Below, piece after piece: positions 1-45,279 of a stretch of DNA of 49,896 nucleotides (position 1 is its first letter; each line of letters starts with the position of its first letter). The DNA lies in the NCBI GenBank assembly GCA_902634075.1, contig CACPJA010000007.1, forward strand, positions 1-49,896, written 5' to 3'. The stretch is from an uncultured Gammaproteobacteria bacterium. Its GTDB lineage: Bacteria; Pseudomonadota; Gammaproteobacteria; Steroidobacterales; UBA11654. The translations under genes were made by a program, and so were the position numbers. The notes under the pieces are model-generated. The model worked only from the letters and a program-made list of their open reading frames with translations, ran no database searches and was not told the origin of the DNA.

Positions 1-269
1 CTGTGACCAAAGTTACGCTTATAATTCTTTCTTCTCTTAAATTTAACAACTTCAATCTTCTTATCTTTACCCTCATCTATAACTTTAGCTTCAACAATAG
101 CATCCGCCAAATAGGGTGTGCCAATCTTAATATCATTACCCTCACCAACAGAGAGAACTTGGTCAAAAACAACTTTCTTACCTACATTAGCCTCTAGTTT
201 CTCGAGTTTTAACTTCTCGCCTTTACTAACTCGGTATTGTTTTCCGCCTGATTTAAATACGGCATACAT
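1..269 (-). CDS. rplU: 50S ribosomal protein L21 (partial, C-terminus beyond left edge)
   Basis: Reading the minus strand from an ATG at 269 gives MYAVFKSGGKQYRV, the canonical L21 N-terminus, followed by a lysine-rich segment ending KRRKNYKRNFGH at the window edge, the conserved 23S rRNA-binding tail. About 89 residues are present, so only a short C-terminal piece is missing. L21 is a structural protein of the large ribosomal subunit. An AAAGG ribosome-binding site lies just upstream of the start on the minus strand. The gene is divergent from ispB, the arrangement known from many gammaproteobacteria, where rpmA and obg normally follow rplU; those would lie outside the window. Confidence 0.96.
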   Translation of the reverse strand, partial: MYAVFKSGGKQYRVSKGEKLKLEKLEANVGKKVVFDQVLSVGEGNDIKIGTPYLADAIVEAKVIDEGKDKKIEVVKFKRRKNYKRNFGH

Positions 270-356
270 AGCTTTCTTACCTTTGTTTCACTTAAAGAAT
301 TTGGCAATTCTATAGATTAAAGCTTTTTAATTCAATAATTATAAAGGTTTGCTATA

Positions 357-1394
357 TTGTCGTCATTAATAAAAAGTATAGATAAAGTGATACAAAGCGT
401 CGACAAAGTAAAACAAACTAAAACTTCAATAGAAGAGATAAGAGACCTGGTCAAAGACGACTGGAAACTTATGGATCAAGAGATTGAAGATCAATTAAGC
501 AGTGATATTGGTCTTATCAATAGTATTTCCAGCTATATCATTAATAGCGGCGGAAAAAGACTAAGGCCTTTACTTGTGCTTCTATCCTCAAAGGCTTGTG
601 GAATTGATAACAATAGAGAAGCAATCAAAGCAGCAGCGATGATAGAGTTTATACACACAGCCACCCTGCTCCATGATGATGTGGTCGATAATTCCGATAC
701 GAGGAGAGGATCAATTACTGCACATAAAAACTTCGGCAATGAAGAAACAATTCTTGTGGGTGATTTTTTATACTCGAGGGCTTTTCAAATCATGGTTGAA
801 ATAGGAAATATGAGGATTATGGAAATTATGTCAGAAGCCACAAATAGGATTGCGGAAGGAGAAGTAATGCAACTCATCAATTGCGGTAATCCAGATACTA
901 CTGAAGAACAATATATGGAGGTCATTTATAGAAAAACTGCAAAACTGTTTGAGTCAGCTGCAAAAATTGGAGCCGTTTTATCTGGCCAATCCAAAAGAAT
1001 TGAAAATAGTCTGAATGATTTTGGAAGAGAGTTAGGGATTGCCTATCAATTAATAGATGATGTATTAGATTATAATTCTTCGTTTGAGATAATGGGTAAA
1101 GACATTGGAGATGATTTATCAGAAGGTAAGCCAACTCTTCCTTTAATTTATGCATTAAAACGGGCAAATCCTGATGAACAAATACTTTTGAGAAATGCTA
1201 TTAGCCAAAAAGATAGCTCTAACAGCAATAATATAATTGAAATTATAGAAGCAACTGGCTCATTAGCTTTAGCCGCTAACAAAGCTGAAGAGACAACAAC
1301 AAAAGCTACCAATGCCTTGAAAGAATTACCAAATAATAAATACAAGGAGGCATTAATTGAACTCTCAGAATTTAGCTTCAAGCGCACTTTTTAG
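357..1394 (+). CDS. ispB: All-trans polyprenyl (octaprenyl) diphosphate synthase
   Basis: Trans-prenyltransferase of about 345 residues that would make the long isoprenoid tail of ubiquinone from farnesyl or geranyl diphosphate and isopentenyl diphosphate. The first aspartate-rich motif is seen in LLHDDVVDNSDTRRG and the second in YQLIDDVLDYN; GGKRLRP is the usual IPP-binding segment. The start is TTG at 357 with AAAGG at 343-347, nine bases upstream; no ATG gives a better N-terminus. The exact chain length (C40 versus another) cannot be read from sequence; the name rests on family and on its position divergent from rplU. trhO follows after 9 bases, probably co-transcribed. Confidence 0.93.
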   Translation: MSSLIKSIDKVIQSVDKVKQTKTSIEEIRDLVKDDWKLMDQEIEDQLSSDIGLINSISSYIINSGGKRLRPLLVLLSSKACGIDNNREAIKAAAMIEFIHTATLLHDDVVDNSDTRRGSITAHKNFGNEETILVGDFLYSRAFQIMVEIGNMRIMEIMSEATNRIAEGEVMQLINCGNPDTTEEQYMEVIYRKTAKLFESAAKIGAVLSGQSKRIENSLNDFGRELGIAYQLIDDVLDYNSSFEIMGKDIGDDLSEGKPTLPLIYALKRANPDEQILLRNAISQKDSSNSNNIIEIIEATGSLALAANKAEETTTKATNALKELPNNKYKEALIELSEFSFKRTF

Positions 1395-1403
1395 AGCGGG
1401 GAA

Positions 1404-2333
1404 ATGGAAGAGAATAAATTAATTGCTGCATTCTATAAATTTGTTGATTGGAACAACCTTAAAAGAAAGAAATCAGAGATCGAGAAATTATGCCTAAAAA
1501 ATAATATCGTAGGCACGATTCTTCTAGCAAATGAAGGTATCAATGGAACTATAGCCGGATCAGAGGAATCTATTTTAGCTGTTATAAAAGGGCTCAAGGA
1601 TGACCCTCTTCTCTTAGACATTGAGCCTAAATTCTCTAAAGCAGAAGGTGAAATCTTCAAAAGAATGAAGGTCAGATTAAAAAAAGAGATCGTTTCAATG
1701 GGTATGGAGAATATCAGACCAGCAAATCTTAAGGGTAAGACTGTAAAGACAGGTGACTGGAATGAATTAATAAGTGACCCAAAAACATTAGTTATTGACA
1801 CAAGGAACCAATATGAGTGTGCTATTGGAACATTTAAAGGTTCTCTAGACCCTAAAACAAAATCTTTTAGAGATTTTCCAGAATGGTCCAAAAATAATCT
1901 GAAAGCCATAATGAAAAAAGAAGGGAAAACCAAAGTAGCAATGTTTTGCACGGGTGGGATAAGATGTGAAAAAGCATCGTCTCACCTCCTAGAAGAAGGT
2001 ATTGAAGAAGTCTATCAACTGGAAGGTGGGATTCTGAAGTATCTAGAAAATATATCATCTGATGAGAGTCTATGGGAGGGTGACTGCTTTGTCTTTGATG
2101 AACGTGTTTCTATTCAGCATGGTCTTGTTGAAGGCAATTATTCAATGTGTCACGCCTGTAGGATGCCTATTGATGATGATGATATGAAAAGTAAGAAATA
2201 TAGCGAAGGAATCAGTTGTCCACATTGTTACGCAACACACTCAGAAGAAAGAAAGGAAAGATTTGCTGAAAGACAGAAACAGATTAAGTTAGCAAAAATA
2301 AGGAACGAAAAACATCTTGGAAAAACCTATTAG
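1404..2333 (+). CDS. trhO: tRNA uridine(34) hydroxylase, rhodanese family
   Basis: A 309-residue member of the YceA/TrhO family, which hydroxylates U34 of certain tRNAs to 5-hydroxyuridine in an O2-dependent route, upstream of cmo5U/mo5U formation. The N-terminal acylphosphatase-like region contains LLANEGINGTIAG. The central rhodanese domain carries the active-site loop FCTGGIRCEKAS with the catalytic cysteine, and YQLEGGILKYL follows as in the family. A C-terminal cysteine-rich tail has CHACRMP and CPHC, a probable zinc site. The ATG at 1404 follows a GGGG-rich ribosome-binding site. The length matches the family and the gene appears intact. Confidence 0.93.
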   Translation: MEENKLIAAFYKFVDWNNLKRKKSEIEKLCLKNNIVGTILLANEGINGTIAGSEESILAVIKGLKDDPLLLDIEPKFSKAEGEIFKRMKVRLKKEIVSMGMENIRPANLKGKTVKTGDWNELISDPKTLVIDTRNQYECAIGTFKGSLDPKTKSFRDFPEWSKNNLKAIMKKEGKTKVAMFCTGGIRCEKASSHLLEEGIEEVYQLEGGILKYLENISSDESLWEGDCFVFDERVSIQHGLVEGNYSMCHACRMPIDDDDMKSKKYSEGISCPHCYATHSEERKERFAERQKQIKLAKIRNEKHLGKTY

Positions 2334-2353
2334 AACTTCTTATAAGGCTAGTC

Positions 2354-2752
2354 TTAAGTTGTATCATATTCAAAATGTTCACAATCGTTTGGAATAGAAT
2401 AATAATTGCCAGCATCTTTAGTATACATATGAGCCGCTGGTTCTAAGTCTGCTGAATCTGAAATTGTTCCAACCCAAATAAAAATTCTAGATGACCCTTC
2501 TTCTTTCCAAAAGAGACTAGATCCACAATCTTCACAAAATCCTCTCTCGGCCACTTCAGATGAAGAGAACCATTTTAGGCTTTCTGATTTCGAAAAACTG
2601 AGTTGAGATTTTTTGATTCCAGCAGCGGCAGCAAAGTGTCCACCCCAGCTCCTGCATTGTTTACAATGACAGAAATAAACCTTAGATATAGACCCAGAAA
2701 CCTCAAAGCTTACTGACTCACAAAGACAACTCCCTGTTGTAACATTACTCAC
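2354..2752 (-). CDS. GFA (glutathione-dependent formaldehyde-activating/CENP-V fold) protein
   Basis: A small 132-residue protein with the zinc-binding cysteine pattern of the GFA family: GSCLCESVSFEV near the N-terminus, FCHCKQCRSWGG at about residues 27-38, and CEDCGSSLFWKEE in the middle. These cysteines bind two zinc ions in characterised members. Despite the family name, most members have no proven glutathione or formaldehyde activity, so no reaction is assigned. It is convergent with trhO and lies six bases downstream of the long 2759-5101 gene on the same strand, so it may share its transcript. Confidence 0.85.
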   Translation of the reverse strand: MSNVTTGSCLCESVSFEVSGSISKVYFCHCKQCRSWGGHFAAAAGIKKSQLSFSKSESLKWFSSSEVAERGFCEDCGSSLFWKEEGSSRIFIWVGTISDSADLEPAAHMYTKDAGNYYSIPNDCEHFEYDTT

Positions 2753-2758
2753 AATGAT

Positions 2759-5101
2759 CTAATTATTTATTTCAGCCAATGCAAACTGACCCAAGACTTG
2801 GCTCTCAAAAGTATAAGTTCCTTTCTCTTGATCAATTTTATTTTTGTAGCTATTTCTAACCTTGGGATGCTCTTCAAATTCTTCGGTCAACTCATTGTAA
2901 ACAATGGGTGTAATACTCTCTGGATTAGTCATTCTTTCCTTATCATAAGGAATAGTTATCTCTGCAGGAACATTCAGAGTTGTTCGGTACGGACCAAAGA
3001 ATACGGTTTTAGAAATTGCATTTGGATGTATCGGCATCTGCACTGAGGGTGTGGCTTTTTCTTGGGTACCAATTACAGCAATAAAATCGTCTTTAGCACT
3101 GTCCAAGAAATCTGAATTTTTATCATATTCATTTATTGCCCTGACGGCATCCTGTCCAGTATTTGGTTGCTTGTCTGTTGATGGTCTCCAGCGGTTATAC
3201 CAACTATAGGACTCTGGTCTATCAGGATTTGGATCGGCACTTATAAGGAGCTTTGCTCCAGCCAAAGAGCCGTCTTTTACCTCTACGATTCCTCCTTCAA
3301 TTTTAGTAACTTCACCTTCAGCTGCAATGCTGATGTCTAGCTCGGGGTATATCTTAAGTCGCTCTATCCCACCTCGAATTCTGTTTACATAATTGATCGC
3401 CATTTCCTTAGAATAATCTTCAAAAGCCTCTGTTAACTGGAGTCTAGTAAAACCCTCAGGACATTGATGCTCAATAGCTGGAACTTGTTCATAATCTCCA
3501 GGTGCATTGTGCTTCTCACACCAGGTCATTCTTAATTCGCCTTGATGTATCTCTTCTATGGAGTTCAGAGGTATATTGAGAGCCTCTCTCATATTGATGA
3601 TCAGCACCCAGTAGGTATAGCCCCAATGGGATAATTGAATAATCACCTCTTTTTTACCTTGATTAAGGATGGCGTCCTCAATTGCTCCTCGAAGATTTGT
3701 AAAACGAAGGGGATCTTCTTTGTAGCCTAGTTGAGTGCCACTGAATAAAGCATAGGAGTATAAATTATTTGTTCTAGCATCCTCGGTTCCGAAGCCTCCG
3801 GTTTTAAGGAAACTAATCTTATGGTCATTTTCATTTTGCTCAATATATCTTTTGAAACTTAGGAAATTTAAATAGGCATTCTCATGGAAAACTTCATTTA
3901 TAAATGGTGCTGCATTTGACATCGGACCCACAGGGTTAGCTCCAGGCCAAGGTAAACCAAATGTGGTGTAGATAACTGAAACCTCACTTCCTGGTTCTAT
4001 ATGATCCAAGTGACGTTCTAAATTCTGATGCATCATATAGTTGTATTCTGGAGTTCTTCCATACATTCTCACTTGATTAATATTAAAATCTTTAACATCA
4101 AAACGAGCCCTACATAAAGATTGCAATGAGAGATGAAGGTCCCAAAAATTGTTTGCATAGACATTGTGATCTGTTATCGGCTTAGCTAGCACGATGTTTC
4201 TATAACCATTTCTCGCAGCGCGAGGCATGGTATCTTTGAGATGCTTTGTCATTCTTGGGACATTAGAATAAAAACCTTCTGTAACCTTGATATCTTCAGA
4301 AAAATATTCCCCTATCCAATCCGATATAAACGGGTCTTGAACTCCCTCAACTGCATCATATTCCGGGTAGAAAACAGGTTCATCTAGATCCCAACCCATC
4401 ATTCCTGCAACTCTCGCTTTGTAAGCTTTATCTATCTCGTAGAAATCATTGATCCCATTGGGTTGTTTTATTAGAAAAATACCTTCCAAATAATCTTCAC
4501 CATTTCGAGGGTCTGGCGTGTAACGTGTTAGTGGAAATCCTCCTGTGTCAGAAGATGCTGAAGCAGGAGCATAATCTTTCATAGCAATTATTTCTATTCC
4601 GCCTAGGTCTTTTTTATAGAGTGTTGGTGCATCTCCTCCCGCATAAGGAAAATCTCCAGCACGGTTATTAACAACAGGTATATAACTTTGTTTGTCCTCA
4701 CTAATCCTATAAGCTCCAACGCTGTCCCAAAGTCTCTCCATACCTTCTACTTTCCTCCCTACTGCAAAAGGCAATCGAGAAATTTCAACTTGGAAGGGGT
4801 AAGAACCTACATGCCATTCAGTGCATGCCTGATTTGGAGAAGTTATTCTTTCTCCTCCTGAAGTTCTCCAAAAGAGATAATCATCATAGGCCTTATTGAA
4901 ACCTTCTGGAGTTCCCCAGCCAGATAATACAACTATTGGCTTCTCCTTTTTTCTTAAGGATATTGGGTCACCTTGATGATCTAAAAGTACCGCTGGTGCA
5001 TAACCACTAGCTGGTATGTAAGTATTTCTAGCAAAAAATATTGCAAGAAATAATAGGTATAAACCAAGAGATAATAAAACTGTGTTTTTGACTAGACGCA
5101 T
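2759..5101 (-). CDS. Large membrane-anchored protein of unknown function, possibly chelatase-like
   Basis: A 780-residue protein with a short basic N-terminus and one hydrophobic segment at about residues 7-25, so it is probably anchored in the inner membrane with the bulk in the periplasm. I do not recognise the family. Motifs that recall class II chelatases (ferrochelatase superfamily) are IVVLSGWGTPEGF near residue 57, VSVIYTTFGLPWPGANP in the middle, and EVIIQLSHWGYTYW further on. This resemblance is weak and only a hypothesis. The last 70 or so residues look like a separate beta-rich domain. The protein appears full length, with the start ATG at 5101 preceded by a GGGGAG ribosome-binding site on the minus strand. 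Confidence 0.8.
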   Translation of the reverse strand: MRLVKNTVLLSLGLYLLFLAIFFARNTYIPASGYAPAVLLDHQGDPISLRKKEKPIVVLSGWGTPEGFNKAYDDYLFWRTSGGERITSPNQACTEWHVGSYPFQVEISRLPFAVGRKVEGMERLWDSVGAYRISEDKQSYIPVVNNRAGDFPYAGGDAPTLYKKDLGGIEIIAMKDYAPASASSDTGGFPLTRYTPDPRNGEDYLEGIFLIKQPNGINDFYEIDKAYKARVAGMMGWDLDEPVFYPEYDAVEGVQDPFISDWIGEYFSEDIKVTEGFYSNVPRMTKHLKDTMPRAARNGYRNIVLAKPITDHNVYANNFWDLHLSLQSLCRARFDVKDFNINQVRMYGRTPEYNYMMHQNLERHLDHIEPGSEVSVIYTTFGLPWPGANPVGPMSNAAPFINEVFHENAYLNFLSFKRYIEQNENDHKISFLKTGGFGTEDARTNNLYSYALFSGTQLGYKEDPLRFTNLRGAIEDAILNQGKKEVIIQLSHWGYTYWVLIINMREALNIPLNSIEEIHQGELRMTWCEKHNAPGDYEQVPAIEHQCPEGFTRLQLTEAFEDYSKEMAINYVNRIRGGIERLKIYPELDISIAAEGEVTKIEGGIVEVKDGSLAGAKLLISADPNPDRPESYSWYNRWRPSTDKQPNTGQDAVRAINEYDKNSDFLDSAKDDFIAVIGTQEKATPSVQMPIHPNAISKTVFFGPYRTTLNVPAEITIPYDKERMTNPESITPIVYNELTEEFEEHPKVRNSYKNKIDQEKGTYTFESQVLGQFALAEINN

Positions 5102-5173
5102 ATGAATACTCCCCTTTGATAATACTATGATGAAGAGGCATTAATTTCAAATAAGGCACGTACTAAAAGGTAT

Positions 5174-5202
5174 ATAGCCAAAGTAAAAAATACTCTGGCT
5201 AT
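5174..5202 (-). terminator. Probable terminator after the two-repeat periplasmic protein
   Basis: Arms at 5174-5185 and 5191-5202 enclose a five-base loop. In the minus-strand RNA all 12 positions pair, one as G-U; on the plus strand that position is an A-C mismatch, which points to function on the minus strand. A CCUUUU run follows a few bases later. It lies 19 bases past the stop of the 5221-5907 gene and before the 2759-5101 gene. Confidence 0.55.
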
Positions 5203-5220
5203 TTTAAATAATTAGATTCT

Positions 5221-5907
5221 TTAGTCCTGTATCAGAATTAGCAAATCATCTGAGTGAGTTCTGATGTCTAGGTCTGCTGTCCCAAGCTCTTCCCCTATGA
5301 TTGAATTAATTTCGTTATGCTTTTTTCCGAAGTCAGAGAAATCCTCAAAACCACAATTGATATAATGCCCCATAGTTGGGCCCCAAGCATGATTATAAAG
5401 ATTACAACCATCAAAAGCTCTATTGAAAGCATCATAGAGTTTTTCTGCCCTATCCTGCCTTTCAGCATTAGTTAAATATGGTCCAAATTCCCATTCCATC
5501 CATAAAAGATTGGTTGGTGCTTTTGTCAAACCTACCTTCTGCCTAAGGAGTATATGGTCTGTGTGTGATGAATAATTCTGAGTTATACCCATACGATCTT
5601 CATTTGCTTCTGCTCTTTTATGGATTGCATCCAGTTGGTCAAAGTCTGTAAAAAAGCAATACGCATAAAAAGCGCGCTCTCCGCCATACCAATGTCTATA
5701 TAAACCACAATCGTTATAGCCATCCTCTTCTTGATCTAGAGTTAGTTGAACTAATTCCTTTTCAAGTTCTGCTGGATTTTGCCCAGCGGCAATTTCATAG
5801 GTAGAAAGCAACATAAAAGTATTCTCCGCAGGTTTAGCCTCCTCATGGCCTCCTGCAAAGACATTCATAGAAAAGCTCACTAAAATTAATAACAATAAAT
5901 TCTTCAT
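5221..5907 (-). CDS. Exported protein with two tandem Cys-paired repeats (ABM-like fold suspected)
   Basis: A 228-residue protein with a clear signal peptide (MKNLLLLILVSFSMNVFA, cleavage near residue 18), so it is periplasmic or secreted. After a short linker it contains two related halves. The first has DCGLYRHWYGGERAFYAYC and the second has GCNLYNHAWGPTMGHYINC; each keeps a C-x16-C pair (C67/C84 and C168/C185) and ends in a His-Thr-Asp or His-Ser-Asp segment followed by hydrophobic beta residues. The pattern suggests a duplicated dimeric alpha/beta-barrel with one disulfide per repeat. Function is unknown. A GGAGAA ribosome-binding site precedes the ATG at 5907. Confidence 0.8.
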   Translation of the reverse strand: MKNLLLLILVSFSMNVFAGGHEEAKPAENTFMLLSTYEIAAGQNPAELEKELVQLTLDQEEDGYNDCGLYRHWYGGERAFYAYCFFTDFDQLDAIHKRAEANEDRMGITQNYSSHTDHILLRQKVGLTKAPTNLLWMEWEFGPYLTNAERQDRAEKLYDAFNRAFDGCNLYNHAWGPTMGHYINCGFEDFSDFGKKHNEINSIIGEELGTADLDIRTHSDDLLILIQD

Positions 5908-5956
5908 TTATTTTCTCCTTAAAAATATATCCTTAACCTTAGATTAATAAAAAAAC

Positions 5957-6919
5957 TTAATAAATTGTGACAATTTCATCTCCTTTGGAATTCTTGTAAG
6001 CTCTTGCCATCCCATCAGTGTTAAAAATCATTGATGCATTGCCTTCTTTATCGATAACAATTACTCCACCTTCAATTCCCATTCCACTAAGCTCATCAAT
6101 CACCTGTTTAGAGGCTTGATCTGAACTTAATCCTAAATAATCCATCCTTGCACAAATCTCTCGAGCCACATTAAATCTCATAAAATATTCACCGTGACCT
6201 GTGCCTGAAACTCCACAAAGATTATTCTGTGCCCAAGTTCCCGCACCTATTATTGGCGAATCTCCTACTCTTCCAGGTAGCTTGTTGGACCTTCCGCCAG
6301 TCGATGTTGCGGCAGAAATGTTCCCCTCCTTATCAATAGCAACTGCACCCACCGTGCTCAATTCATCCTTTGTTTTTTGTCTTCTTACCCTGTCTAATTT
6401 TTCTTTAGAGTAAAAATAACTTGGATCAACAACCTCTAAACCGCCTTTGATAGCTACTTTTTCAGCTCCTTGGCCAACAATTAATACATGCTCTGTCTTT
6501 TCCATAACATATCGAGCAAGTTTAATAGGGTTTTTTATTGTTGAAACAGAAGCTACGGCGCCAGCGTTCTGAAGCTCCCCTGTCATTATAGAAGCATCCA
6601 TTTCTTGCCTCTCTTCAGCTGTATAAACAGAACCTTTGCCAGCATTAAAAGTGACATCATCCTCTAATATAACTACCGCAGCCTCCACAGCATCTAGGCT
6701 AGTTCCGCCCGATTCAAGAATTGCGAAACCCTCATCCAAAGCTCTCTTTAATCCATCTTCAATGGACTTTAGTTTTTCTTCAGTCTGATTTCTGCTCCAC
6801 CCTGCGCCTCCATGAATAACTATGGCAATATTAGAAGCCATAACGTCTGAATTGGGCTGGCTCGCGATCAAAAAATTTGATTGAGCCAGAAGAAGAAAGA
6901 GTAGTAGGTATTTTTTCAT
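5957..6919 (-). CDS. Exported isoaspartyl peptidase/L-asparaginase (Ntn hydrolase, family T2)
   Basis: A plant-type asparaginase of 320 residues that hydrolyses isoaspartyl dipeptides and/or L-asparagine. A signal peptide (MKKYLLLFLLLAQSNFLIAS) puts it in the periplasm. VIHGGAGW at residues 34-41 is the family start, NAGKGSVYT near 92-100 is a conserved loop, and STVGAVAID at 188-196 holds the autocleavage site, with Thr189 becoming the N-terminal nucleophile. ATSTGG follows, and GTGHGE lies in the beta subunit. The length fits the family. Substrate preference cannot be set from sequence. It is upstream on the same strand as the two-repeat protein and may be co-expressed. Confidence 0.92.
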   Translation of the reverse strand: MKKYLLLFLLLAQSNFLIASQPNSDVMASNIAIVIHGGAGWSRNQTEEKLKSIEDGLKRALDEGFAILESGGTSLDAVEAAVVILEDDVTFNAGKGSVYTAEERQEMDASIMTGELQNAGAVASVSTIKNPIKLARYVMEKTEHVLIVGQGAEKVAIKGGLEVVDPSYFYSKEKLDRVRRQKTKDELSTVGAVAIDKEGNISAATSTGGRSNKLPGRVGDSPIIGAGTWAQNNLCGVSGTGHGEYFMRFNVAREICARMDYLGLSSDQASKQVIDELSGMGIEGGVIVIDKEGNASMIFNTDGMARAYKNSKGDEIVTIY

Positions 6920-7060
6920 TAGCTAAATAGTATTTCATTATTTACAAACATAACAAATCTCAGATTAGCTTAATAGAGCTTGATTATTGTATTATTTAAA
7001 AAAATATAACTGAGAAGGATTCTGAGCAACTCTGAAAAAATTATCGATATACCCTGGAAA

Positions 7061-7660
7061 ATGGCTGTCTGGGTATTACCTATCCATCTTTATGCACTTC
7101 TCGTGCCTTTAATTCTTATCCCAGCAGCAAATAACAATAGATTGTTACTAGAAGAAAAGATCTTCAATGTTGAGCTTTTGTTTCTCGCTGCAGCGATTTT
7201 GGTATTAGGTAGCTTATTTGAAATCATACAAAACCATATAGACCGTTGGTTTGTCTCAACTGAAAGCGCCAGCGGAAATGGCTATAGCCTGATGGATGGA
7301 TTGTTTGCTTTTTTCATCCTACTTGGTCAAGCTCTTATTCTTATTGCGCTCATAGGTCAAAGCAACATAGTTAAAGCTTTTGCAGTAATTTGTGTGCTTG
7401 CAGGACCAATTTTATATTACAGGAAACAACTGGTTTTCTTGCCAACTAGTCTAATAGGCACTGTTAACACTATAGTTGCTTTCATAATTTTTAATGATTG
7501 GGTTATTTTTATGCAAATAATCACCGTTGCTCTAACTATTATTTTCTTTAACCGGTTGCTGGACACTGGTAATCAGTTCTATCATGGCTTAACAACATTG
7601 GCAGCCTCATCAGGAGTCTTGTTTCTGGCCTTCGTTATTAACAATGCTAGCTATGGATAG
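7061..7660 (+). CDS. Multi-pass membrane protein of unknown function
   Basis: A 199-residue, highly hydrophobic protein with about six predicted membrane helices and a short loop containing HIDRWFVSTESASGNGYS. I do not recognise the family. The ATG at 7061 has only a weak ribosome-binding site. The frame stays open upstream, and a non-ATG start near 7019-7022 directly after AAGGA would add SNSEKIIDIPWK before the first helix, so the true start may be slightly upstream. It overlaps the following FAD oxidoreductase gene by 17 bases, which suggests translational coupling and that it may serve as its membrane partner; that role is inference. Confidence 0.75.
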   Translation: MAVWVLPIHLYALLVPLILIPAANNNRLLLEEKIFNVELLFLAAAILVLGSLFEIIQNHIDRWFVSTESASGNGYSLMDGLFAFFILLGQALILIALIGQSNIVKAFAVICVLAGPILYYRKQLVFLPTSLIGTVNTIVAFIIFNDWVIFMQIITVALTIIFFNRLLDTGNQFYHGLTTLAASSGVLFLAFVINNASYG

Positions 7661-8843
7661 ACGCACTTTTTCAAAATTGCTTTCACTTCTGATGATTTCC
7701 TCGAATCATGCATTAGCAGCTTTCAATAAGCGTGAAAAAATAATTGTAATCGGGGCCGGCATTATAGGAACCTCGATAGCCTATGAATTATCAAAAATGG
7801 GGGCGCAAGTTACTCTTATAGATCAAAAATTTCCTGGGTCGGCTGCTAGTGGAAGCACTTTTTCTTGGATTAATGCCACCTACCCTAAAAAACCTTATCC
7901 CTATAATTTTCTCTCCCAGCTCGGTATAGATGCTTACAAAAGTTTAGAGAAAGAAATAAATTTAAAAATAAAGTGGGGCGGTTCTCTTGAATGGTTCGAT
8001 TCAGATGAAGAGCAAACCACCCTTATGAATGAGGTCAATAATTTAAAAAAATATCCAAGATACTCAGCTGTTGATGTGATCAATGAAAGAGAAGCTAGAA
8101 ATCTAGAACCTGGTATTGATTTCAAAAATAAAAATATTGTCTTCTCCAGAGCTGATGGAGCAATAGATACTATTCATGCTATCAACTTGATGATAGAGAA
8201 TATTGAATTTAATGGGGGTTCTGTACTCTACCCCTGTCAGTTTCAAGGACTAAAATACACAAATGGAAGATTGTCATCTGTGGAAACCACAATTGGGGAA
8301 TTAGAAGCACATCAAGCAATATTTGCAACAGGCATTGATAGTGGACGATTATTATCAATCGAAATGATGAAACCATCAACACCAGGAATCATAGTTACAT
8401 CAAAACCTACAGAAAATATATTAAACAGGATAATAGTAGGTCCAGGAGTGCATATTCACCAACAAACAGACGGGAGAATAATCTTTGGTGAGCAAACAGG
8501 AGCTCCCAGTTCTCACATAGATAGATTGAGCGATAAGCCAAAAGAATTTCCATCCGAGATTTTTGCTCAAGATCACACCAATCGAATTTTTGATACGGCA
8601 AAAACGTTTATGAAAAAAGTTGAAGATCTTAAAGTTGAAAGAGTCTCCATCGGGTGGCGTCCGCTTCCAAGAGATGGAATACCCATAATAGGAAGGCTTG
8701 AAGGATTATCAGATGTATATGTGGCAGTTATGCACAGTGGGGTAAGTCTTGCAGCAATCGTTGGGAAGCTTGTATCAGAAGAAATTCTTAGTGGATCAAC
8801 AAATTTATTATTGAAAGATTTTAGACCATCTAGATTCAATTGA
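7644..8843 (+). CDS. Tat-type FAD-dependent oxidoreductase of the D-amino-acid oxidase (DAO) family
   Basis: A 399-residue flavoprotein. The N-terminus has a twin-arginine-like signal (DRRTFSKLL followed by a hydrophobic stretch to about residue 25), suggesting folded export to the periplasm. The Rossmann FAD motif is IIVIGAGIIGTSIAYELSK with an acidic residue after the second strand (TLIDQ). FSWINATYP and a C-terminal GWRPLPRDGIPIIGR plus VYVAVMHSGVSLA are typical of the DAO/glycine oxidase superfamily. The oxidised amine or amino acid is not predictable. A second ATG at 7653 would start exactly at MDRRTF and is a good alternative. The gene overlaps the membrane protein before it and is followed by copper-handling genes. 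Confidence 0.87.
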   Translation: MLAMDRRTFSKLLSLLMISSNHALAAFNKREKIIVIGAGIIGTSIAYELSKMGAQVTLIDQKFPGSAASGSTFSWINATYPKKPYPYNFLSQLGIDAYKSLEKEINLKIKWGGSLEWFDSDEEQTTLMNEVNNLKKYPRYSAVDVINEREARNLEPGIDFKNKNIVFSRADGAIDTIHAINLMIENIEFNGGSVLYPCQFQGLKYTNGRLSSVETTIGELEAHQAIFATGIDSGRLLSIEMMKPSTPGIIVTSKPTENILNRIIVGPGVHIHQQTDGRIIFGEQTGAPSSHIDRLSDKPKEFPSEIFAQDHTNRIFDTAKTFMKKVEDLKVERVSIGWRPLPRDGIPIIGRLEGLSDVYVAVMHSGVSLAAIVGKLVSEEILSGSTNLLLKDFRPSRFN

Positions 8844-8878
8844 TATCTTCTATGATTACTATAAAATTCGACTCATAG

Positions 8879-9031
8879 ATGAACCAAGATAAAAAATATC
8901 TCTATATTTTTGCAGGACTCGCACTGATCCCGTTTGTAATACTGTTACTATTTAATGCCTGGGCATTAATTTCATCTATATATTTTCCAGAATATAACCC
9001 AGTGGCAGTTATATGCGGACCTCGTGTTTAA
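8879..9031 (+). CDS. Small single-span membrane protein (50 residues)
   Basis: An ATG at 8879 opens a 50-codon frame ending in TAA at 9029-9031. The product has a short charged start (MNQDKKYLYI), one strong hydrophobic segment (about residues 10-34) and a tail with YFPEYNPVAVICGPRV. Its stop overlaps the ATG at 9031 of the PCu(A)C gene (TAATG), the usual sign of translational coupling, and the gap to the gene before it is only 35 bases. These features argue that it is a real gene. Its function is unknown; a structural or accessory part in copper or oxidase assembly is possible from context only. Confidence 0.6.
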   Translation: MNQDKKYLYIFAGLALIPFVILLLFNAWALISSIYFPEYNPVAVICGPRV

Positions 9032-9468
9032 TGATTAGAAAATCACTGCTCTTCTTAGGGCTACTATTTTTTATACCTCATTCAGCAATAAGTGAAATTG
9101 TTGTAAAAAATGCATGGGTCAGAGCTGCGCCAGCGGGATCTAAAGCTATGGCAGCTTATATGTTTATCGATAATCAAGGACCAAAAAAAATGAGTTCCTC
9201 AAAGATCATCGCCAATGGTTTTGAGAAAGCAGAAGTACACATGATCTTTATTAGCAATAATATTGCACAAATGAGAAAACTAGAGAATATCTCTATTGAT
9301 GGAAAAGAATCAATAGCCTTAGAGCCGGGTGGGTTGCATTTAATGTTAATTAATCCTAACAAAGTACCTAAAAAGAATTCTAAAGTTGAGATACTCATGT
9401 TTTTTGAAAATGAAAATAATGCTGAAGTTGTAAGAATTGAAGCTGATGTTAGGAGTCAAGAATTATAG
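9031..9468 (+). CDS. Periplasmic copper chaperone PCu(A)C
   Basis: A 145-residue exported protein of the PCu(A)C family, which delivers Cu(I) to the CuA site of cytochrome c oxidase, often with SCO. The signal peptide is SLLFLGLLFFIPHSAIS. The copper-binding pattern H(M)-x10-M-x21-H-x-M is exactly met: His70, Met71, Met81, His103 and Met105. NAWVRAAP at the start of the mature domain is also typical. I chose the ATG at 9031 because it overlaps the stop of the small gene before it (TAATG) and directly precedes the signal peptide; an in-frame ATG at 9013 would add six residues. A SCO gene follows after about 14 bases. Confidence 0.92.
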   Translation: MIRKSLLFLGLLFFIPHSAISEIVVKNAWVRAAPAGSKAMAAYMFIDNQGPKKMSSSKIIANGFEKAEVHMIFISNNIAQMRKLENISIDGKESIALEPGGLHLMLINPNKVPKKNSKVEILMFFENENNAEVVRIEADVRSQEL

Positions 9469-9482
9469 AAACGAAAAATAAA

Positions 9483-10082
9483 TTGTTCTTAATATTTGCT
9501 GTGATTGCTTTGGTATTCATGGTCTTAATCATACAAAAAGGTCCAATATTAAATGAGAAACAACCCATACTTCAAAGTGGAAAAGCATTAAAACAACCCT
9601 TAGAAATTATTGACTTTGAGTTGAAAGATCAGAAGAATCAAGTGTTTACAAAAAATGATTTTAAAAATCAATTTACCCTTCTTTTCTTTGGTTATACGAA
9701 CTGTCCAGATGTTTGCCCAAGCACCATTTATAAACTTAGCCAGATGAAAAAGAAAATAAGTCAGGATATACCAGAGGCAACTCTCGAGATTGTTTTTATT
9801 ACGCTTGATCCAGAAAGAGACACGACAGATCGACTTGATGAGTACATGAATTTTTTCGATTCCACGATGATTGGTCTAACAGGAGAGATTAGTGAAATTG
9901 TTAAGCTATCTGCAAATCTTAGTGTATTTTTTCAAAGGATAAACAAAGAAGATGGGTATGATTTTAATCACACAGCTTCAATTTTTGTAATCAATACAGA
10001 GGCTCAGCTTGGAGCTTCGCTCAGCCCGATAAGTTCACTTGAAATGCTTGAAGAAGATATAAGAACCTTAGTGTCAAAATAA
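9483..10082 (+). CDS. SCO1/SenC family copper-binding thioredoxin-fold protein
   Basis: A membrane-anchored periplasmic protein of about 200 residues. An N-terminal hydrophobic helix (residues 2-17) is followed by the SCO domain. FGYTNCPDVCPS holds the CxxxC copper/redox pair (Cys74, Cys78), and His163 in NHTASIF is the third ligand. ITLDPERDT is another family motif. It would assemble CuA of cytochrome c oxidase together with the PCu(A)C protein just upstream. The TTG start at 9483 has a poor ribosome-binding site. An in-frame ATT at 9462 lies six bases after a strong AGGAG at 9451-9455 and would add a natural basic cytoplasmic tip, so the real start may be 9462. Confidence 0.92.
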   Translation: MFLIFAVIALVFMVLIIQKGPILNEKQPILQSGKALKQPLEIIDFELKDQKNQVFTKNDFKNQFTLLFFGYTNCPDVCPSTIYKLSQMKKKISQDIPEATLEIVFITLDPERDTTDRLDEYMNFFDSTMIGLTGEISEIVKLSANLSVFFQRINKEDGYDFNHTASIFVINTEAQLGASLSPISSLEMLEEDIRTLVSK

Positions 10083-10094
10083 TACTAAGTTAGA

Positions 10095-10463
10095 TCAATT
10101 CTTTGATATGCCAATCTTATCTCTGGCCAATAGATTATTCTCTTCTATATCATCAAGAACCCAATCACTTGTTAAAAGCCTTGCAGAATATTGCCTGTTA
10201 TATAGAAAAGGCATAATTAGTTGGAAAATTCCGAAAGTTACTAATGAAAAAATTAAGTGAAAGACGCCAATAGAGATCTCCCCTCTGAAAATAGGAACAA
10301 AAAAGCCAAAAAAGAAATAGGTCCAAGAGTAGCCAACAAAACAAGTCCCGTTTAAGCCTGATCCCTTATGCCTTATTTTTATCTTTTTTTGCCAGCCCAT
10401 AACCAAGGTTCCAATGATTAAGGGTAGGAAAATCATGATAATTATAAATAAAGCAATTCCCAT
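10095..10463 (-). CDS. Small membrane protein resembling the HrgC/DUF2628 group
   Basis: A 122-residue protein with an N-terminal hydrophobic helix (residues 3-23), a basic stretch (KKIKIRHKGSG), then the recognisable segment YSWTYFFFGFFVPIFRGE and two further hydrophobic stretches ending LIMPFLYNRQY. This Phe/Trp-rich signature followed by an 'FxRGD/E' turn is common to small membrane proteins annotated HrgC or DUF2628, whose function is not known. Its ATG overlaps the stop of the SDR gene upstream (TAATG at 10465-10461 on the minus strand), so it is translationally coupled to that gene. Confidence 0.7.
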   Translation of the reverse strand: MGIALFIIIMIFLPLIIGTLVMGWQKKIKIRHKGSGLNGTCFVGYSWTYFFFGFFVPIFRGEISIGVFHLIFSLVTFGIFQLIMPFLYNRQYSARLLTSDWVLDDIEENNLLARDKIGISKN

Positions 10464-11341
10464 TAGATAACTCCTATATCTTTAATATTAGTTACTTTAG
10501 AAGCATAATCCCATACGGATTCTTTTAGATTATTATCATATGAAAGTGTCGATGCTTCTTTTCTTTTGCCATGCTCCCAATAGAAACCAGATTTGCCAAT
10601 ATATTGTAGATCAGAAGTCATTACAATATGATTTAAAGCCCCTTTTTCAGCAGACTGCAGAAAAGGTTTGATTAAATTTACAATAACGCCATGCATACCT
10701 CGCATATGCCGATGAATATTTGTATTAATAAAATAACCAGGTGAAACTGCAAAAACGTCTATGTTTGTTTGTTCTAGTTTTTCAGACAATATAAAGCTAA
10801 AAAGATTAAGGCACAATTTTGATCTTGCATAGGCTTGAAATCCCATGGAATGATTAACTTTTTCCCAGCCAGTTTCAAAATTAATATCATCAAAATCAAA
10901 TTCCTTTGCCATTCTATGACCATCTGAAGAAATATTTATTATCCTAGAATTGTCAGGTTTCATGAGTAGATCCAAAAGAAGATGGGTCAAGAGGAAGGGC
11001 CCAAGAAAATTCGTAGCCATGGTCATTTCAAAACCATCCTCACTTTGTCTTCTGATTGACTCAGTAATTCCAGCATTATTAATTAAGACATCTAATTGAG
11101 AATAATGATTATGGATTTGTCTTGATAACTCTCTTAACGCACTAAAAGAAGAAACATCACAATCAAAATATTCAATATCTTTATTTCCTGAAGCGTCAAT
11201 AATCTCATCTTTTGAGTTGATACCCTCTTCAGTATCAAAATCAACCAGAATCAGTCTAGCCCCCTTATCTGCGAGTGCTTTGGCTGCAATTCTACCCATT
11301 CCGCTGGCTGTGCCAGTAATTAAGACTGTCTTATCTTGCAT
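10463..11341 (-). CDS. Short-chain dehydrogenase/reductase (retinol-dehydrogenase-like)
   Basis: An NAD(P)-dependent oxidoreductase of about 292 residues. TGTASGMGRIAA is the glycine-rich cofactor motif, NNAG the structural motif, and ISSDG with YARSK gives the Ser-Tyr-Lys catalytic set. The overall pattern (NFLGPFLLTHLLLDLL and VSPGYF) is closest to the retinol dehydrogenase/WW-domain oxidoreductase-like branch. The start ATG at 11341 yields MQDKTVLITG, the standard SDR beginning; a longer frame back to 11377 would run into the end of the DUF169 gene. It sits four bases after that gene, so the two and the cytochrome c gene probably form one transcript. Substrate unknown. Confidence 0.88.
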   Translation of the reverse strand: MQDKTVLITGTASGMGRIAAKALADKGARLILVDFDTEEGINSKDEIIDASGNKDIEYFDCDVSSFSALRELSRQIHNHYSQLDVLINNAGITESIRRQSEDGFEMTMATNFLGPFLLTHLLLDLLMKPDNSRIINISSDGHRMAKEFDFDDINFETGWEKVNHSMGFQAYARSKLCLNLFSFILSEKLEQTNIDVFAVSPGYFINTNIHRHMRGMHGVIVNLIKPFLQSAEKGALNHIVMTSDLQYIGKSGFYWEHGKRKEASTLSYDNNLKESVWDYASKVTNIKDIGVI

Positions 11342-11345
11342 TAAT

Positions 11346-12311
11346 TTAGCTGAGCATGCTTGGATCCATACCAACACTTTTCATCTGTTCCAAGACTACA
11401 GATTTTGTTATTTCTTCAATTCCATTTTCCCTTGCAAAATCTTCTACGTTATTAATAGCCATTTCTATAATGCCTGGTGGGGTTGATGCAATCATATCTT
11501 TTGATTCCTGATCCCAAATCATGCTTAGTTTCGACTCAAATTCATTTTTTGGAGCATCTTCTTTTAACTTTCTTTCTTTTGCTTTTTTAGCTCGTTTTCT
11601 TTTGTCCCAGTATTCAGATTCTTCTGGCTTAGTGGCTTCTAATACAGCTCTTGCGTCAGGGGTTGAAGTCATAATATTTAATAAACTTTCCAAATACTCA
11701 TTTGGAACAACCACAAACATTTCCTCAGGTTTTAATCGATTATTCATTCTCCCCCCCAGATCACCAGGAGTAATGACAACGTTGCCGTCATGCCAAGGTG
11801 TTGCAAAAAGATCACTGCAAAAAGAAGAGCCAGCAGCTCCTCTTGGCGGGGTGCCATCCAATACAGTCCTTGCACCTCCAATAAAGTTAGCCCAATGGGG
11901 TGTGCAAACTACGACTATCCAATCTACAAATATGTCGTCAGGGACATCAGAAAGCGGTGCGGCACCAATCCCGACAACAGTTTTTTGGGGTAAAACATAC
12001 TCTCCAGTTTTAATTTTCTCAGCCCCCACATCTGTATAGGCAGGTATATTTTGTGCAAGGTATTGTCCGTTCCTTATCTCGTCAGTTCCCTCATGAACTC
12101 CTGCGGTGTAGACACCTGTGGTGCAATCGTGATGATGTCTATCAAATGAAACTATCTCCCCTTTATCCATAGCGTGCCTGACAATGGAACATGGAACCAC
12201 TTTCTTTTGTTCATAAGGTTTAGGTATTTCTTCTTTAAATAAGCTAATAGCAACCGGGTTACCTCTTACCTTTCCAGCTAAAGAGTCACTAAGTTCTTTG
12301 AGATCTATCAT
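11346..12311 (-). CDS. DUF169 protein with C-terminal PCP_red-like domain
   Basis: A 321-residue soluble protein. The N-terminal two thirds match my recollection of the DUF169 family: CSIVRHAMDKGEIV at 41-54, then a His/Cys-rich loop (RHHHDC, residues 58-63), GQYLAQNIPAY and VCTPHWANFIGG. A lysine-rich linker follows at about 236-256. The last 50 residues (about 265-310, WDQESKDMIASTPPGI... DFARENGIEEITKSV) look like the PCP_red domain found at the C-terminus of the BchB/ChlB subunit of dark protochlorophyllide reductase. No photosynthesis genes are nearby. Function unknown; the conserved Cys and His residues could hold a metal centre. It lies 19 bases downstream of the cytochrome c gene. Confidence 0.82.
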   Translation of the reverse strand: MIDLKELSDSLAGKVRGNPVAISLFKEEIPKPYEQKKVVPCSIVRHAMDKGEIVSFDRHHHDCTTGVYTAGVHEGTDEIRNGQYLAQNIPAYTDVGAEKIKTGEYVLPQKTVVGIGAAPLSDVPDDIFVDWIVVVCTPHWANFIGGARTVLDGTPPRGAAGSSFCSDLFATPWHDGNVVITPGDLGGRMNNRLKPEEMFVVVPNEYLESLLNIMTSTPDARAVLEATKPEESEYWDKRKRAKKAKERKLKEDAPKNEFESKLSMIWDQESKDMIASTPPGIIEMAINNVEDFARENGIEEITKSVVLEQMKSVGMDPSMLS

Positions 12312-12330
12312 ATTTGAATTATAGCCTGTT

Positions 12331-13128
12331 TTATTCTATTGGTCTTCCAGGCAAAATGCCGCCGTATAGCATCAGGTCTTCTTTTGGTTTAGATCGCCAA
12401 AGCTCCTTAGCAAAACGGGGTATTGCCATTGCTGCTATAGGAAAACATTCAACAAACTCTGAAGTTGAAAAAGGTAATCGATGGATGGCGTAACAAAACA
12501 TGTCTCTTTCTGTTATATGCCAAAACCCGCTGACCCCCTTAAGGCTTGTAGAAACTGATCCATTAGTATTGAAGTAAGCATCAAATTCAATCTGGTTGTC
12601 ACTATCAACTAAACGATAGTGAGTAGTGTTGGTCATCAGATGATTCCAAAAACTAGGAAAACGCTCAGAAACAGGGAGACTTTTATCAATTGTTTCTGCA
12701 ATAAATGATCTCTCAATATTGGGTTTATTTGGAGCACCTGTTTCTATCATCATAAAAGCTATCATATCGATTAAAAATTCTTCAGGAACAGGCTCAGGAA
12801 TCATCATGGTGCTCCCTGGAAAAAGCTTTTGAGGACCTTGTAGAAATCTATAAATTAATTCCTTATCCCAAATCAAATCAGATGAACCCATTGACAATGA
12901 GTAATTATAAGCAGGATCTTCTCCAACACTTCTACCAAATATTTGCCAAAGATTTGGGCCTACAATATTTGCGCTATCTGCCGCTAAAGTATGGCAAGCG
13001 CTACAACGTTGCTGAAATGCATTTTTACCATTGAGATAATCAGCATTATCCAGCTCATCTGTTGTTGGTGTCGCAAGAACCGCTGTGCTTAAAAAGCACA
13101 AGAAAAATATTTTTAATCCAAAACCCAC
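12331..13128 (-). CDS. Exported class I cytochrome c with a C-terminal extension
   Basis: A 265-residue periplasmic protein. A hydrophobic signal peptide ends near ATA/TPTT at residue 20. RCSACHTLA at 41-49 is the covalent heme site, GPNLW follows, and Met108 or Met109 in FPGSTMMIPEP is the probable distal axial ligand, as in cytochrome c2/c-type domains. The heme domain ends near residue 130. The remaining 135 residues form an unrecognised domain with HYRLVDSDNQIEFDAYF and two cysteines in FCYAIHRLP... ECFPI, resembling small periplasmic domains of DUF995 type. The start is GTG at 13128 with a weak ribosome-binding site. It is first in a minus-strand operon with the DUF169 and SDR genes. Confidence 0.88.
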   Translation of the reverse strand: MGFGLKIFFLCFLSTAVLATPTTDELDNADYLNGKNAFQQRCSACHTLAADSANIVGPNLWQIFGRSVGEDPAYNYSLSMGSSDLIWDKELIYRFLQGPQKLFPGSTMMIPEPVPEEFLIDMIAFMMIETGAPNKPNIERSFIAETIDKSLPVSERFPSFWNHLMTNTTHYRLVDSDNQIEFDAYFNTNGSVSTSLKGVSGFWHITERDMFCYAIHRLPFSTSEFVECFPIAAMAIPRFAKELWRSKPKEDLMLYGGILPGRPIE

Positions 13129-13204
13129 TTTAATTTAGTATTTTTTTTATAAGAAATATAAATTAGCATTATTACTTTAAAGATAAAACGGTTAGAATTT
13201 TGAC

Positions 13205-14080
13205 ATGAAATTTTGGGGTAAGAAAAATGAGAAGTGGGTTGAAAGCCCAATGCATAATAACTGGTATCAATCCAGTTCATATTTTCTAAGCTCTTTCGCT
13301 CTAATAACCTCTGTAAGCGAGGATGGAGTAACAAGTATTGGACCTTATCAACTTTCTTTCCCTTTTGGCGTTATTGAACGCAGAGAAGTAATTGTGATTT
13401 CAAGAAGAGGATCAAATACCTCAACTAACTTAAAAAGAGTCAAAAAGTGCGCAATGAATTGGGTCGAATACGATAGAAGCAAGGTAAAGAACATCGTTGA
13501 CCTAGGTTACCCTGGCCAAGAACCGGTGGAAAAAATGGAAGACTGCCCTTATGAGCTTGAAGAAACGCCAACAGAAGCTTTCCGCGATGATCCGGATAGA
13601 CCCAAAGTTATTAAAGATGCGTTTCAAGTTTTTGAATGTGAATTAAATGATAATCCTGATGATTTTTACTACAAGGGAACGGAGCATACAGAGTATCTTC
13701 TTCTTAAACTTAATAACATCTACCTAAGAGAGCGATGGAGAAATAATCTGGATTTAGGCGATGACATGAAGATTCCAAATATGCCTATTAGCTTTGGTTT
13801 TAGAAATGCTAATCAGTTCTGGTTCGCCAAACATAAGAAACCATTTTGGTTGCCAACTCCAGAAGGCAAAGGTGCTGCGCATGACGCTGTAATGTATATA
13901 GGAAATCGAATCGATCCAGAAATCAACTTTACAGAAGATGCCTGCAAGCAACTAACTGGGGTACCAAAGGTTTTTGTCAAAACAGTCCTAAAAGGAATCA
14001 TTAAAGAAGCAAAAAAAGAAGGCGTTACAGTAATCGATGAAGCTTTCGTTAAAAAAGTTAACGAAAACAGAAATAAATAG
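13205..14080 (+). CDS. Flavin-reductase-like split-barrel protein with C-terminal PCP_red-like domain
   Basis: A 291-residue soluble protein. The N-terminal part (about 15-150) reads like an FMN-binding split barrel of the flavin-reductase/DUF447 kind: SSYFLSSFALITSVSEDG, SIGPYQLSFPFG, VIVISRRGSNTSTNLK, and NWVEYDR. The C-terminal 50 residues (FTEDACKQLTGVPKVFVKTV... EAKKEGVTVIDEAFV) resemble the PCP_red domain, the same kind of tail as on the divergently transcribed DUF169 protein 900 bases away. I infer a flavin or F420-linked redox role, but no substrate can be named. It is divergent from the cytochrome c gene and is followed after four bases by a membrane methyltransferase-like gene. Confidence 0.75.
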   Translation: MKFWGKKNEKWVESPMHNNWYQSSSYFLSSFALITSVSEDGVTSIGPYQLSFPFGVIERREVIVISRRGSNTSTNLKRVKKCAMNWVEYDRSKVKNIVDLGYPGQEPVEKMEDCPYELEETPTEAFRDDPDRPKVIKDAFQVFECELNDNPDDFYYKGTEHTEYLLLKLNNIYLRERWRNNLDLGDDMKIPNMPISFGFRNANQFWFAKHKKPFWLPTPEGKGAAHDAVMYIGNRIDPEINFTEDACKQLTGVPKVFVKTVLKGIIKEAKKEGVTVIDEAFVKKVNENRNK

Positions 14081-14084
14081 ATTA

Positions 14085-14705
14085 ATGTCACATCGAACCA
14101 AGGACCTTCCTAAACTATCTGGGTTAGCTCACCTGATTAGAGAACTCAGATATCATGAATTCTCTAGGCAAAGCATAGGCATAATACTAGTAAGTGTTTT
14201 TTGCTTTGAAACATCTCCTGATTTAATTTTTCCTTATGCATCTCATTTTGCTATAAGTCTCATTCTTATCGGACTAAGTCTCCGAATGTACGCATCAGGA
14301 TTCGTGTTAAAAAATAAAGAACTTTCGACCACAGGACCTTATGCTTTTATGAGACATCCTCTCTACACTGGAAATATAATGATTCTAATAGGTTTGTGTC
14401 TAATTAATGGTTTCTTTTGGTCTTTTGTAATTGCATTTATTTTCTTTTGGTTTTATTACCCAACTGCAATTGAATATGAAGACAGAAAACTAAAATCACT
14501 TTTTCCAGATACTTGGGAAGAATGGGCATCTATGACACCAGCGCTAATACCTAAAATGGATCTTAAGGGCACTATTAAAGGAAAAATCTTTTCTCAATTG
14601 GATCTTAGAAGCTGGTCTTTGAAGAAAAGCTTAGTAACAAACTACGAACCAGTCATTGTGATTTATGTAATTGCCTGGTTAATTGTTATTGGTAATCGTG
14701 GCTAA
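14085..14705 (+). CDS. Isoprenylcysteine carboxyl methyltransferase-like (PEMT/ICMT) membrane protein
   Basis: About 206 residues with four to five membrane helices. The diagnostic region is STTGPYAFMRHPLYTGN followed by a hydrophobic helix, then FYYPTAIEYEDRKLKSLF and WEEW, which form the SAM-binding end of ICMT and phospholipid N-methyltransferase proteins. The bacterial substrate is usually unknown (isoprenylcysteine-like compounds, phospholipids or others). I chose the ATG at 14085, four bases after the preceding stop; a longer frame back to 14037 would overlap that gene by 44 bases. Its end overlaps the start of the kinase-like gene, so these genes look translationally linked. Confidence 0.85.
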   Translation: MSHRTKDLPKLSGLAHLIRELRYHEFSRQSIGIILVSVFCFETSPDLIFPYASHFAISLILIGLSLRMYASGFVLKNKELSTTGPYAFMRHPLYTGNIMILIGLCLINGFFWSFVIAFIFFWFYYPTAIEYEDRKLKSLFPDTWEEWASMTPALIPKMDLKGTIKGKIFSQLDLRSWSLKKSLVTNYEPVIVIYVIAWLIVIGNRG

Positions 14706-44169: not shown

Positions 44170-45279
44170 ATGTTTATCAATTTTTGGTACGTCGCTGATG
44201 AAAGCAAAAACATAACTGATAAACCAGTTAAAAAGAAGATGCTGGGTCAGAACTTTGTCCTTTTTAGAGACTCAAAAGGTAAAGTTCACTGTCTGAGTGA
44301 TGTCTGCATTCATCGTGGCGGTTCGCTAGCTGGAGGAAAGATTGTTCAAGACTGTGTCCAGTGTCCTTATCATGGTTGGCGATTCAATGGAGCCGGCAAA
44401 TGTCAGCAAATCCCTTCACTCGGTAAGAATGCAAAAATCCCTTCCAGAGCTAAAATCGACTCGTATCCCACAAAAGAAGTCTATGGTCTGGTCTTCTGCT
44501 TCTTAGGCGATGCTCCAGAAAAAGAACGATGCCCAATCATGAAAGTTGGTGAATACGAAAAAGAAGGATGGCAAACCACAACACAGTATTTTCAGTTTGA
44601 CATCGATTACAAGCGATCAATAGAAAACGGTATCGATGGTGCTCATAATGAATTTGTTCATCCTACACATGGGTTTTCAGGGGAAGATGAGGAGTACAAG
44701 TCACCCCCGATAGATATGAAGGAAACAAAATGGGGAACAGGGTTTTGGAGTAAGATGTACGCACCCCCACTCAAGGAAAAAAAGATGCGAGAAGCATCGG
44801 GACGAGATAAAAATGCAGTGATGGAAGCGGGCACAGGTCATCATGGTATCTCAATGCTATGGACACATATCCACCCTACTGCTCAAGTTTTCATCCACCA
44901 GTACATGTATGAAACACCCATAGATGAAGATCGAACTAACCTTTATTTGATAAACACAAGAAACTTTTTAACCGATCCTCAGCATGATGAAACAGTGATG
45001 GAAAGAAATCAGGTCGTTGCATTCCAAGATAGAGATGTCCTGTCAGGCCTGCATCCCAAGCTGACTCCAGAAACAACAAAGAATGAATTTTTTGTCACTA
45101 TGGATAAACCCATTAAGCGTTATCGAGACCTATTGGACGAATGGGAAAACAAAGGTTGGAGAATTAATAGTGAAGAGGTTCAAAAAAATAAAAAGAGCCA
45201 TGCCTATGCAATCCCAAGCCCTGCGAGACGCAAGAGTAAGGGTTGGGTTCTTGATCCTATCCCTTTGATAAAACCCTAA
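44170..45279 (+). CDS. Rieske non-heme iron oxygenase, copy 1
   Basis: A 369-residue oxygenase alpha-type subunit. The Rieske centre is CIHRGGSLAGG ... CPYHGWRF (C-x-H, then C-x2-H). The mononuclear iron site is ENGIDGAHNEFVHPTHG, with the bridging Asp and two His of the D-x2-H-x4-H motif. It hydroxylates or demethylates a ring substrate with electrons from a reductase. The architecture is that of single-component alpha subunits such as vanillate demethylase or related ring-hydroxylating enzymes. It is paralogous to the gene at 45390. No ferredoxin or reductase gene is in the window. Confidence 0.92.
   Translation: MFINFWYVADESKNITDKPVKKKMLGQNFVLFRDSKGKVHCLSDVCIHRGGSLAGGKIVQDCVQCPYHGWRFNGAGKCQQIPSLGKNAKIPSRAKIDSYPTKEVYGLVFCFLGDAPEKERCPIMKVGEYEKEGWQTTTQYFQFDIDYKRSIENGIDGAHNEFVHPTHGFSGEDEEYKSPPIDMKETKWGTGFWSKMYAPPLKEKKMREASGRDKNAVMEAGTGHHGISMLWTHIHPTAQVFIHQYMYETPIDEDRTNLYLINTRNFLTDPQHDETVMERNQVVAFQDRDVLSGLHPKLTPETTKNEFFVTMDKPIKRYRDLLDEWENKGWRINSEEVQKNKKSHAYAIPSPARRKSKGWVLDPIPLIKP

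Follow-up and report, generated by a model that had tools for sequence, protein, structure and literature searches.

A PCP_red-like C-terminal module on unrelated redox proteins of a gammaproteobacterial lineage

A 49,896-nucleotide stretch of DNA from an uncultured gammaproteobacterium of the order Steroidobacterales (the whole of which is called the window here) encodes two unrelated proteins whose C-termini resemble PCP_red (PF08369), the C-terminal domain of light-independent protochlorophyllide reductase subunit B, raising the question of whether the two tails are one module and what such a module might do in this setting. The first protein, encoded on the minus strand (11346–12311, 321 aa), consists of a DUF169 core (PF02596; 11679–12272) and a tail at 11349–11528 (residues 262–321; Pfam match at 11391–11516). 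The second, FlavB, encoded on the plus strand (13205–14080, 291 aa), joins a flavin-reductase-like split barrel to a tail at 13895–14074 (residues 231–290). Between the two genes lie a minus-strand cytochrome c gene (12331–13128), whose predicted secreted product has a C-terminal region of no known family, and the 76-bp intergenic region (13129–13204) from which cytochrome c and FlavB diverge. An SDR gene (10463–11377, minus strand) overlaps the DUF169 gene by 32 bases, and a gene for a PEMT/ICMT-type membrane methyltransferase (14037–14705, plus strand), a neighbour kept across the genus, overlaps the 3′ end of FlavB. The order, orientation and coordinates of the DUF169, cytochrome c and FlavB genes agree with the preliminary description of the locus. 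In a relative with 97–99% identity (L002, 7261–11485), the DUF169, SDR and methyltransferase genes are split into pieces in different frames, and these breaks are probably assembly errors. Elsewhere in the window, at 7644–8843, lies a gene for an FAD-dependent oxidoreductase whose N-terminus (DRRTFSK) is twin-arginine-like; across the genus it stays close to the genes for PCuAC and SCO1.

The DUF169 core scores 88 bits against PF02596, over the curated cut-off of 27. Three of its cysteines (Cys41, Cys63 and Cys165) are invariant in relatives with and without the tail, and possibly form a metal or Fe–S site. Untailed relatives occur (G011 and G521), and the tail on DUF169 is confined to relatives from the window's own family (f1) and from family f15. 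Against Pfam, FlavB scores weakly with PNPOx_N (13.6 bits) and PCP_red (12.4 bits), and does not itself reach the Flavin_Reduct cut-off. Comparison of its core by hhalign with a Pfam-confirmed flavin reductase family (Flavin_Reduct 60–65 bits) gave a probability of 98.6% over 196 columns, with shuffles at ≤0.3%; judged from these sequence profiles, the core belongs to the flavin-reductase split-barrel superfamily. Single-sequence PDB searches with either core found no relative, and no relative of either protein was found on plasmids.

The DUF169 tail matches PF08369 with 26.4 bits in the protein scan (residues 266–307, E=7e-6) and 29.3 bits in the genome scan (E=1.2e-6), slightly short of the curated Pfam cut-off of 32.5 bits, and its orthologues in G003, G004, G006 and G008 score 32.3–36.1 bits and are marked as passing that cut-off. 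For the FlavB tail, the single-sequence score of 12.4 bits (E=0.16) is under the cut-off and not significant, and taken by itself would have led to rejection of a PCP_red identity. FlavB homologues with a complete tail were found in 52 of the 296 genomes of the order, and a profile built from 55 non-redundant tails matched pooled PCP_red domains of universal stress proteins (USP) and radical-SAM proteins with 97.9% probability (E 2.5e-12) and standalone PCP_red proteins with 94.8% probability. Control profiles gave ≤0.4% (40 column-shuffled versions) and ≤0.1% (FlavB segments ending upstream of the tail). A profile comparison of BchB with DUF169 tails gave 72%. The resemblance to PF08369 claimed in the preliminary description thus stands for the DUF169 tail, by its own scores and those of its orthologues, and for FlavB by the 55-tail profile and not by the sequence alone. 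The combined tail profile recovers both window tails (E 1.7e-24 and 1.9e-19), both being among its own seeds.

AlphaFold models, each built from the protein's own orthologues only, reached a pLDDT of mostly 70–90 in both tails. The top PDB match was in both cases 2KRU, the NMR structure of PCP_red from BchB, with a TM score (normalised to 2KRU) of 0.78 at 1.6 Å for the FlavB tail and 0.76 at 0.9 Å for the DUF169 tail; the latter also matched 2L09 and 2YNM_D, a BchB chain. RuvB lid domains of the AAA+ type ranked after 2KRU, and the fold is therefore of the small helical kind. For the rest of FlavB the model is not reliable, with a pLDDT below 50 at residues 1–226, because its alignment had only 11 close orthologues, and the DUF169 core was modelled confidently in part only. 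The profile comparison with its shuffled controls and the top fold match confirm that two unrelated enzymes carry one shared PCP_red module at the C-terminus. The columns conserved across tails hold an invariant proline and mostly alanine, glycine, tryptophan or phenylalanine, and hydrophobic or aliphatic residues. No cysteine or histidine is invariant in the tail alignment across hosts, which argues against iron or haem ligation and for a structural or interface role.

We then asked how widely the module occurs. A profile of 19 tails matched in 77 of the 296 genomes of the order, some of them phototrophs with BchB or genomes with the USP/radical-SAM type; the tailed redox proteins other than Bch are concentrated in three families, f1, f13 and f15. 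The preliminary description had seen two tailed proteins at this locus; both are there, and the usual number in relatives is about four for a genome of f1 or f13 and between one and seven for one of f15. The hosts, assigned by Pfam or a clear sequence signature, are flavin reductase, FlavB, DUF169, a Rieske/VanA-type oxygenase, a TauD dioxygenase and free-standing proteins of 66–75 residues, the copies of the latter in the window's genus being weak by Pfam alone. DUF169 and flavin reductase tails are 35–41% identical over ~62 residues and fall together with support 0.965 in a tree of 82 tails, whose resolution suffers from the shortness of the sequences; the tails of FlavB cluster there with those of TauD and the small proteins, and the Rieske tails form a group of their own. 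In five genomes (L274, at 5523–7802, L275, L276, L277 and L262) the module lies inside a Rieske–PCP_red–SDR fusion of 654–766 residues, the SDR of which is encoded by an adjoining gene of its own in L038, L041 and relatives. As this fusion demonstrates, two enzymes encoded separately side by side in other genomes can be bridged physically by the tail. In the window itself, two adjacent Rieske-type genes followed by an SDR on the opposite strand (44170–47272) are 32–34% identical to the tailed Rieske oxygenase by tblastn and have no PCP_red match.

In a sample of the phylum outside the order, PCP_red was found almost only on BchB/BchZ-like pairs or in the USP/radical-SAM set. The latter set was seen at L036 (8283–10280), L037, L082 (9174–12849), L058 and L068, where a universal stress protein that has multiple PCP_red domains in tandem adjoins a radical-SAM/SPASM protein with at least one PCP_red domain and a HemY-like FAD amine-oxidase-family gene; at L082 the set stands beside an apparent NarG-type molybdoenzyme operon. 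The plasmid-borne flavin reductases that we found have no PCP_red tail, and in the open-access papers searched we found no report of the fusions described here, nor of PCP_red anywhere but in the chlorophyll enzyme.

The tailed genes also keep company with one another, in line with the conserved neighbourhood expected from the preliminary description. The divergent DUF169/FlavB pair is present in all relatives from the genus and the family, and in five f13 genomes (L045, L118, L121, L123 and L126) FlavB stands divergent to a tailed flavin reductase, so that the layout is constant and the tailed partner is exchanged. In f15, a flavin reductase lies within a few kb of FlavB at L042, L149, L156, L125 and L128, and L042 has a compact, operon-like run of four genes encoding a tailed flavin reductase, an alpha/beta hydrolase, a luciferase-like monooxygenase and FlavB; the tailed DUF169 is followed by a homologue of the window SDR at L197 and L199, also in f15, and by a luciferase-like gene at L198. 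FlavB is present in 16 of 16 genomes with a tailed DUF169 and in neither of the two with an untailed relative; a tailed flavin reductase occurs in 42 of the 50 genomes with FlavB and 2 of the 30 without it. With every positive belonging to one of three families, common descent confounds these counts, and shared ancestry accounts for part of the co-occurrence, which is confined to one clade. Seven f15 genomes have FlavB and no detectable tailed flavin reductase. No flavin reductase was detected in the window's own genome (77% complete); its near-identical relative G009 has one.

The absence of chlorophyll genes that the preliminary description noted for the region is supported for the lineage as regards bacteriochlorophyll: the window genome, at 77% completeness, has no BchH match and no PF08369 match other than the two tails. 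A lineage making its own Mg-porphyrin was considered and rejected, as no BchH match over the cut-off was found in the searched genomes of the three tail-bearing families; the one sub-threshold match, in G004, is probably CobN-like. An untailed DUF169 gene in G521 (L203, 6620–7369) overlaps the start of bchH (7341–11033) and lies beside bchI (5449–6558), both chelatase genes scoring above the NCBI cut-off, in a genome that also has a BchZ-like PCP_red match. This layout suggests a link between DUF169 and Mg-tetrapyrroles.

What, then, might the tail do? Reasoning from the homology and fold observed for the tails, from their host range, and from the fusion, the operon-like run and the pairs of genes that are conserved, we infer with about even confidence that the PCP_red tail is a docking module assembling cytoplasmic enzymes of flavin-dependent oxygenation. 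In one lineage of Gammaproteobacteria, a small autonomous helical domain of the PCP_red fold, resembling AAA+ lids, would have been added to several cytoplasmic redox enzymes that are not related; a tail would contact another tail, a PCP_red protein of the free-standing kind or a partner common to the tails, and docking would thereby hold in proximity the enzymes of a pathway that depends on flavin and oxygen. The tailed flavin reductase may supply reduced flavin to the luciferase-like monooxygenase and perhaps to FlavB, and the Rieske or TauD oxygenases, DUF169 and the SDRs may act on one common substrate. Two-component luciferase-like monooxygenases rely on a separate flavin reductase, and a flavin reductase adjoining a luciferase-like gene fits such a supply. 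We favour docking because the conservation of the tail is structural, with no invariant cysteine or histidine, and because the Rieske–tail–SDR fusion bridges enzymes; the pairing and neighbourhood of tailed genes, the likeness of DUF169 and flavin reductase tails and the existence of untailed relatives of the hosts also count for it. The internal position of the module in the fusion counts against it, as do the confinement of the co-occurrence to one clade and the seven f15 genomes in which FlavB has no detectable tailed flavin reductase, and the roughly three sequence groups of tails are no proof of mutual binding. The preliminary description had left docking and cofactor binding side by side for a module of an uncharacterised redox system: the shared module on unrelated redox proteins is borne out, cofactor binding is not favoured by the tail alignment, and docking is the more probable reading of the two.

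The main rival, which we regard as unlikely, sees the tail as a domain that takes up a ligand of hydrophobic, tetrapyrrole-like or aromatic nature and offers it to the redox domain to which the tail is joined. PCP_red is otherwise carried by BchB and BchZ, which are tetrapyrrole reductases, and by the radical-SAM protein next to the HemY-like gene; the DUF169–bchH overlap in G521 points the same way, as does the window SDR, with a full-length match to the LPOR model at a score far below the cut-off. However, the tails have no invariant cysteine or histidine, BchH is missing above the cut-off from the searched genomes of the tail-bearing families, the Rieske partners are VanA-type, and the DUF169–bchH case was seen once only.

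It is rather improbable that each enzyme has the tail only for its own folding, solubility or self-oligomerisation, with no common partner involved. Conservation limited to the tail core and the separate grouping of tails from different hosts would fit such a private domain, but tailed genes adjoin in several lineages, most genomes of the three families hold two to seven tails, and free-standing copies occur.

The cytochrome c had suggested a further reading, in which a single redox chain is made up of DUF169, FlavB and the cytochrome, the last being the docking partner of the tails. Its gene stands between DUF169 and FlavB in the window and in five relatives (L002, L003, L004, L007 and L012), and at L117 in f15 (264–8810), where an aceE-cluster gene is close to FlavB just as it is in the genus of the window, a cytochrome homologue is 7 kb away, an arrangement indicating that the neighbourhood in part predates the genus. 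However, about half of the relatives (L005, L006, L008–L011, L034 and L052) have no cytochrome gene between the pair, and at L005 DUF169 and FlavB are divergent only 47 bases apart. In addition, the N-terminus of the cytochrome reads as a signal peptide (MGFGLKIFFLCFLSTAVLA) and neither DUF169 nor FlavB has one, making direct contact unlikely, as the proteins are expected on opposite sides of the inner membrane. A role for the cytochrome is therefore not supported; it was dropped as a core part and is an optional neighbour outside the conserved core, and the redox chain, largely refuted by the relatives without it, is very improbable. That the FlavB tail is a generic helical C-terminus resembling PCP_red by chance, as its non-significant single-sequence score might allow, is refuted by the profile comparison with shuffled controls and by the independent fold match to 2KRU, and we give it almost no credence.

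PCP_red, a domain named for one chlorophyll enzyme, recurs in non-phototrophs as the tail of six or more kinds of redox proteins, which makes its role testable outside dark-operative protochlorophyllide reductase (DPOR), offers a handle on DUF169 and predicts which enzymes of an uncharacterised marine catabolic pathway act together. More tentatively, PCP_red may be a mobile dockerin-like assembly module by which a lineage of marine Gammaproteobacteria gathers DUF169, flavin reductases, oxygenases of the Rieske and TauD kinds and a free adaptor into a cytoplasmic oxygenase metabolon, with the same partner-recruiting role in BchB and BchZ.

Among known systems, the tails have the fold, profile and C-terminal position of PF08369 in BchB/ChlB of DPOR (2KRU, 2YNM and 2XDQ) in common, whereas the window cores are DUF169 and a split barrel, the nitrogenase-like N-terminal domain is missing, the window genome has no BchH match, and the FlavB window tail is far below the Pfam cut-off. 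The USP/radical-SAM set of other Gammaproteobacteria likewise bears the module on non-Bch proteins with both neighbours tailed, but differs in its tandem copies, other hosts and HemY-like link, and was not found with the DUF169/FlavB set. DUF169 proteins (PF02596, COG2043) have the full core in common with the window protein, the PCP_red tail of its f1 and f15 relatives being the difference. Finally, two-component monooxygenases made of a flavin reductase (PF01613) and a luciferase-like protein (PF00296), both encoded at L042, share the split barrel with FlavB and the tailed reductase; the added PCP_red tail, which the plasmid-borne flavin reductases found do not have, is the difference.
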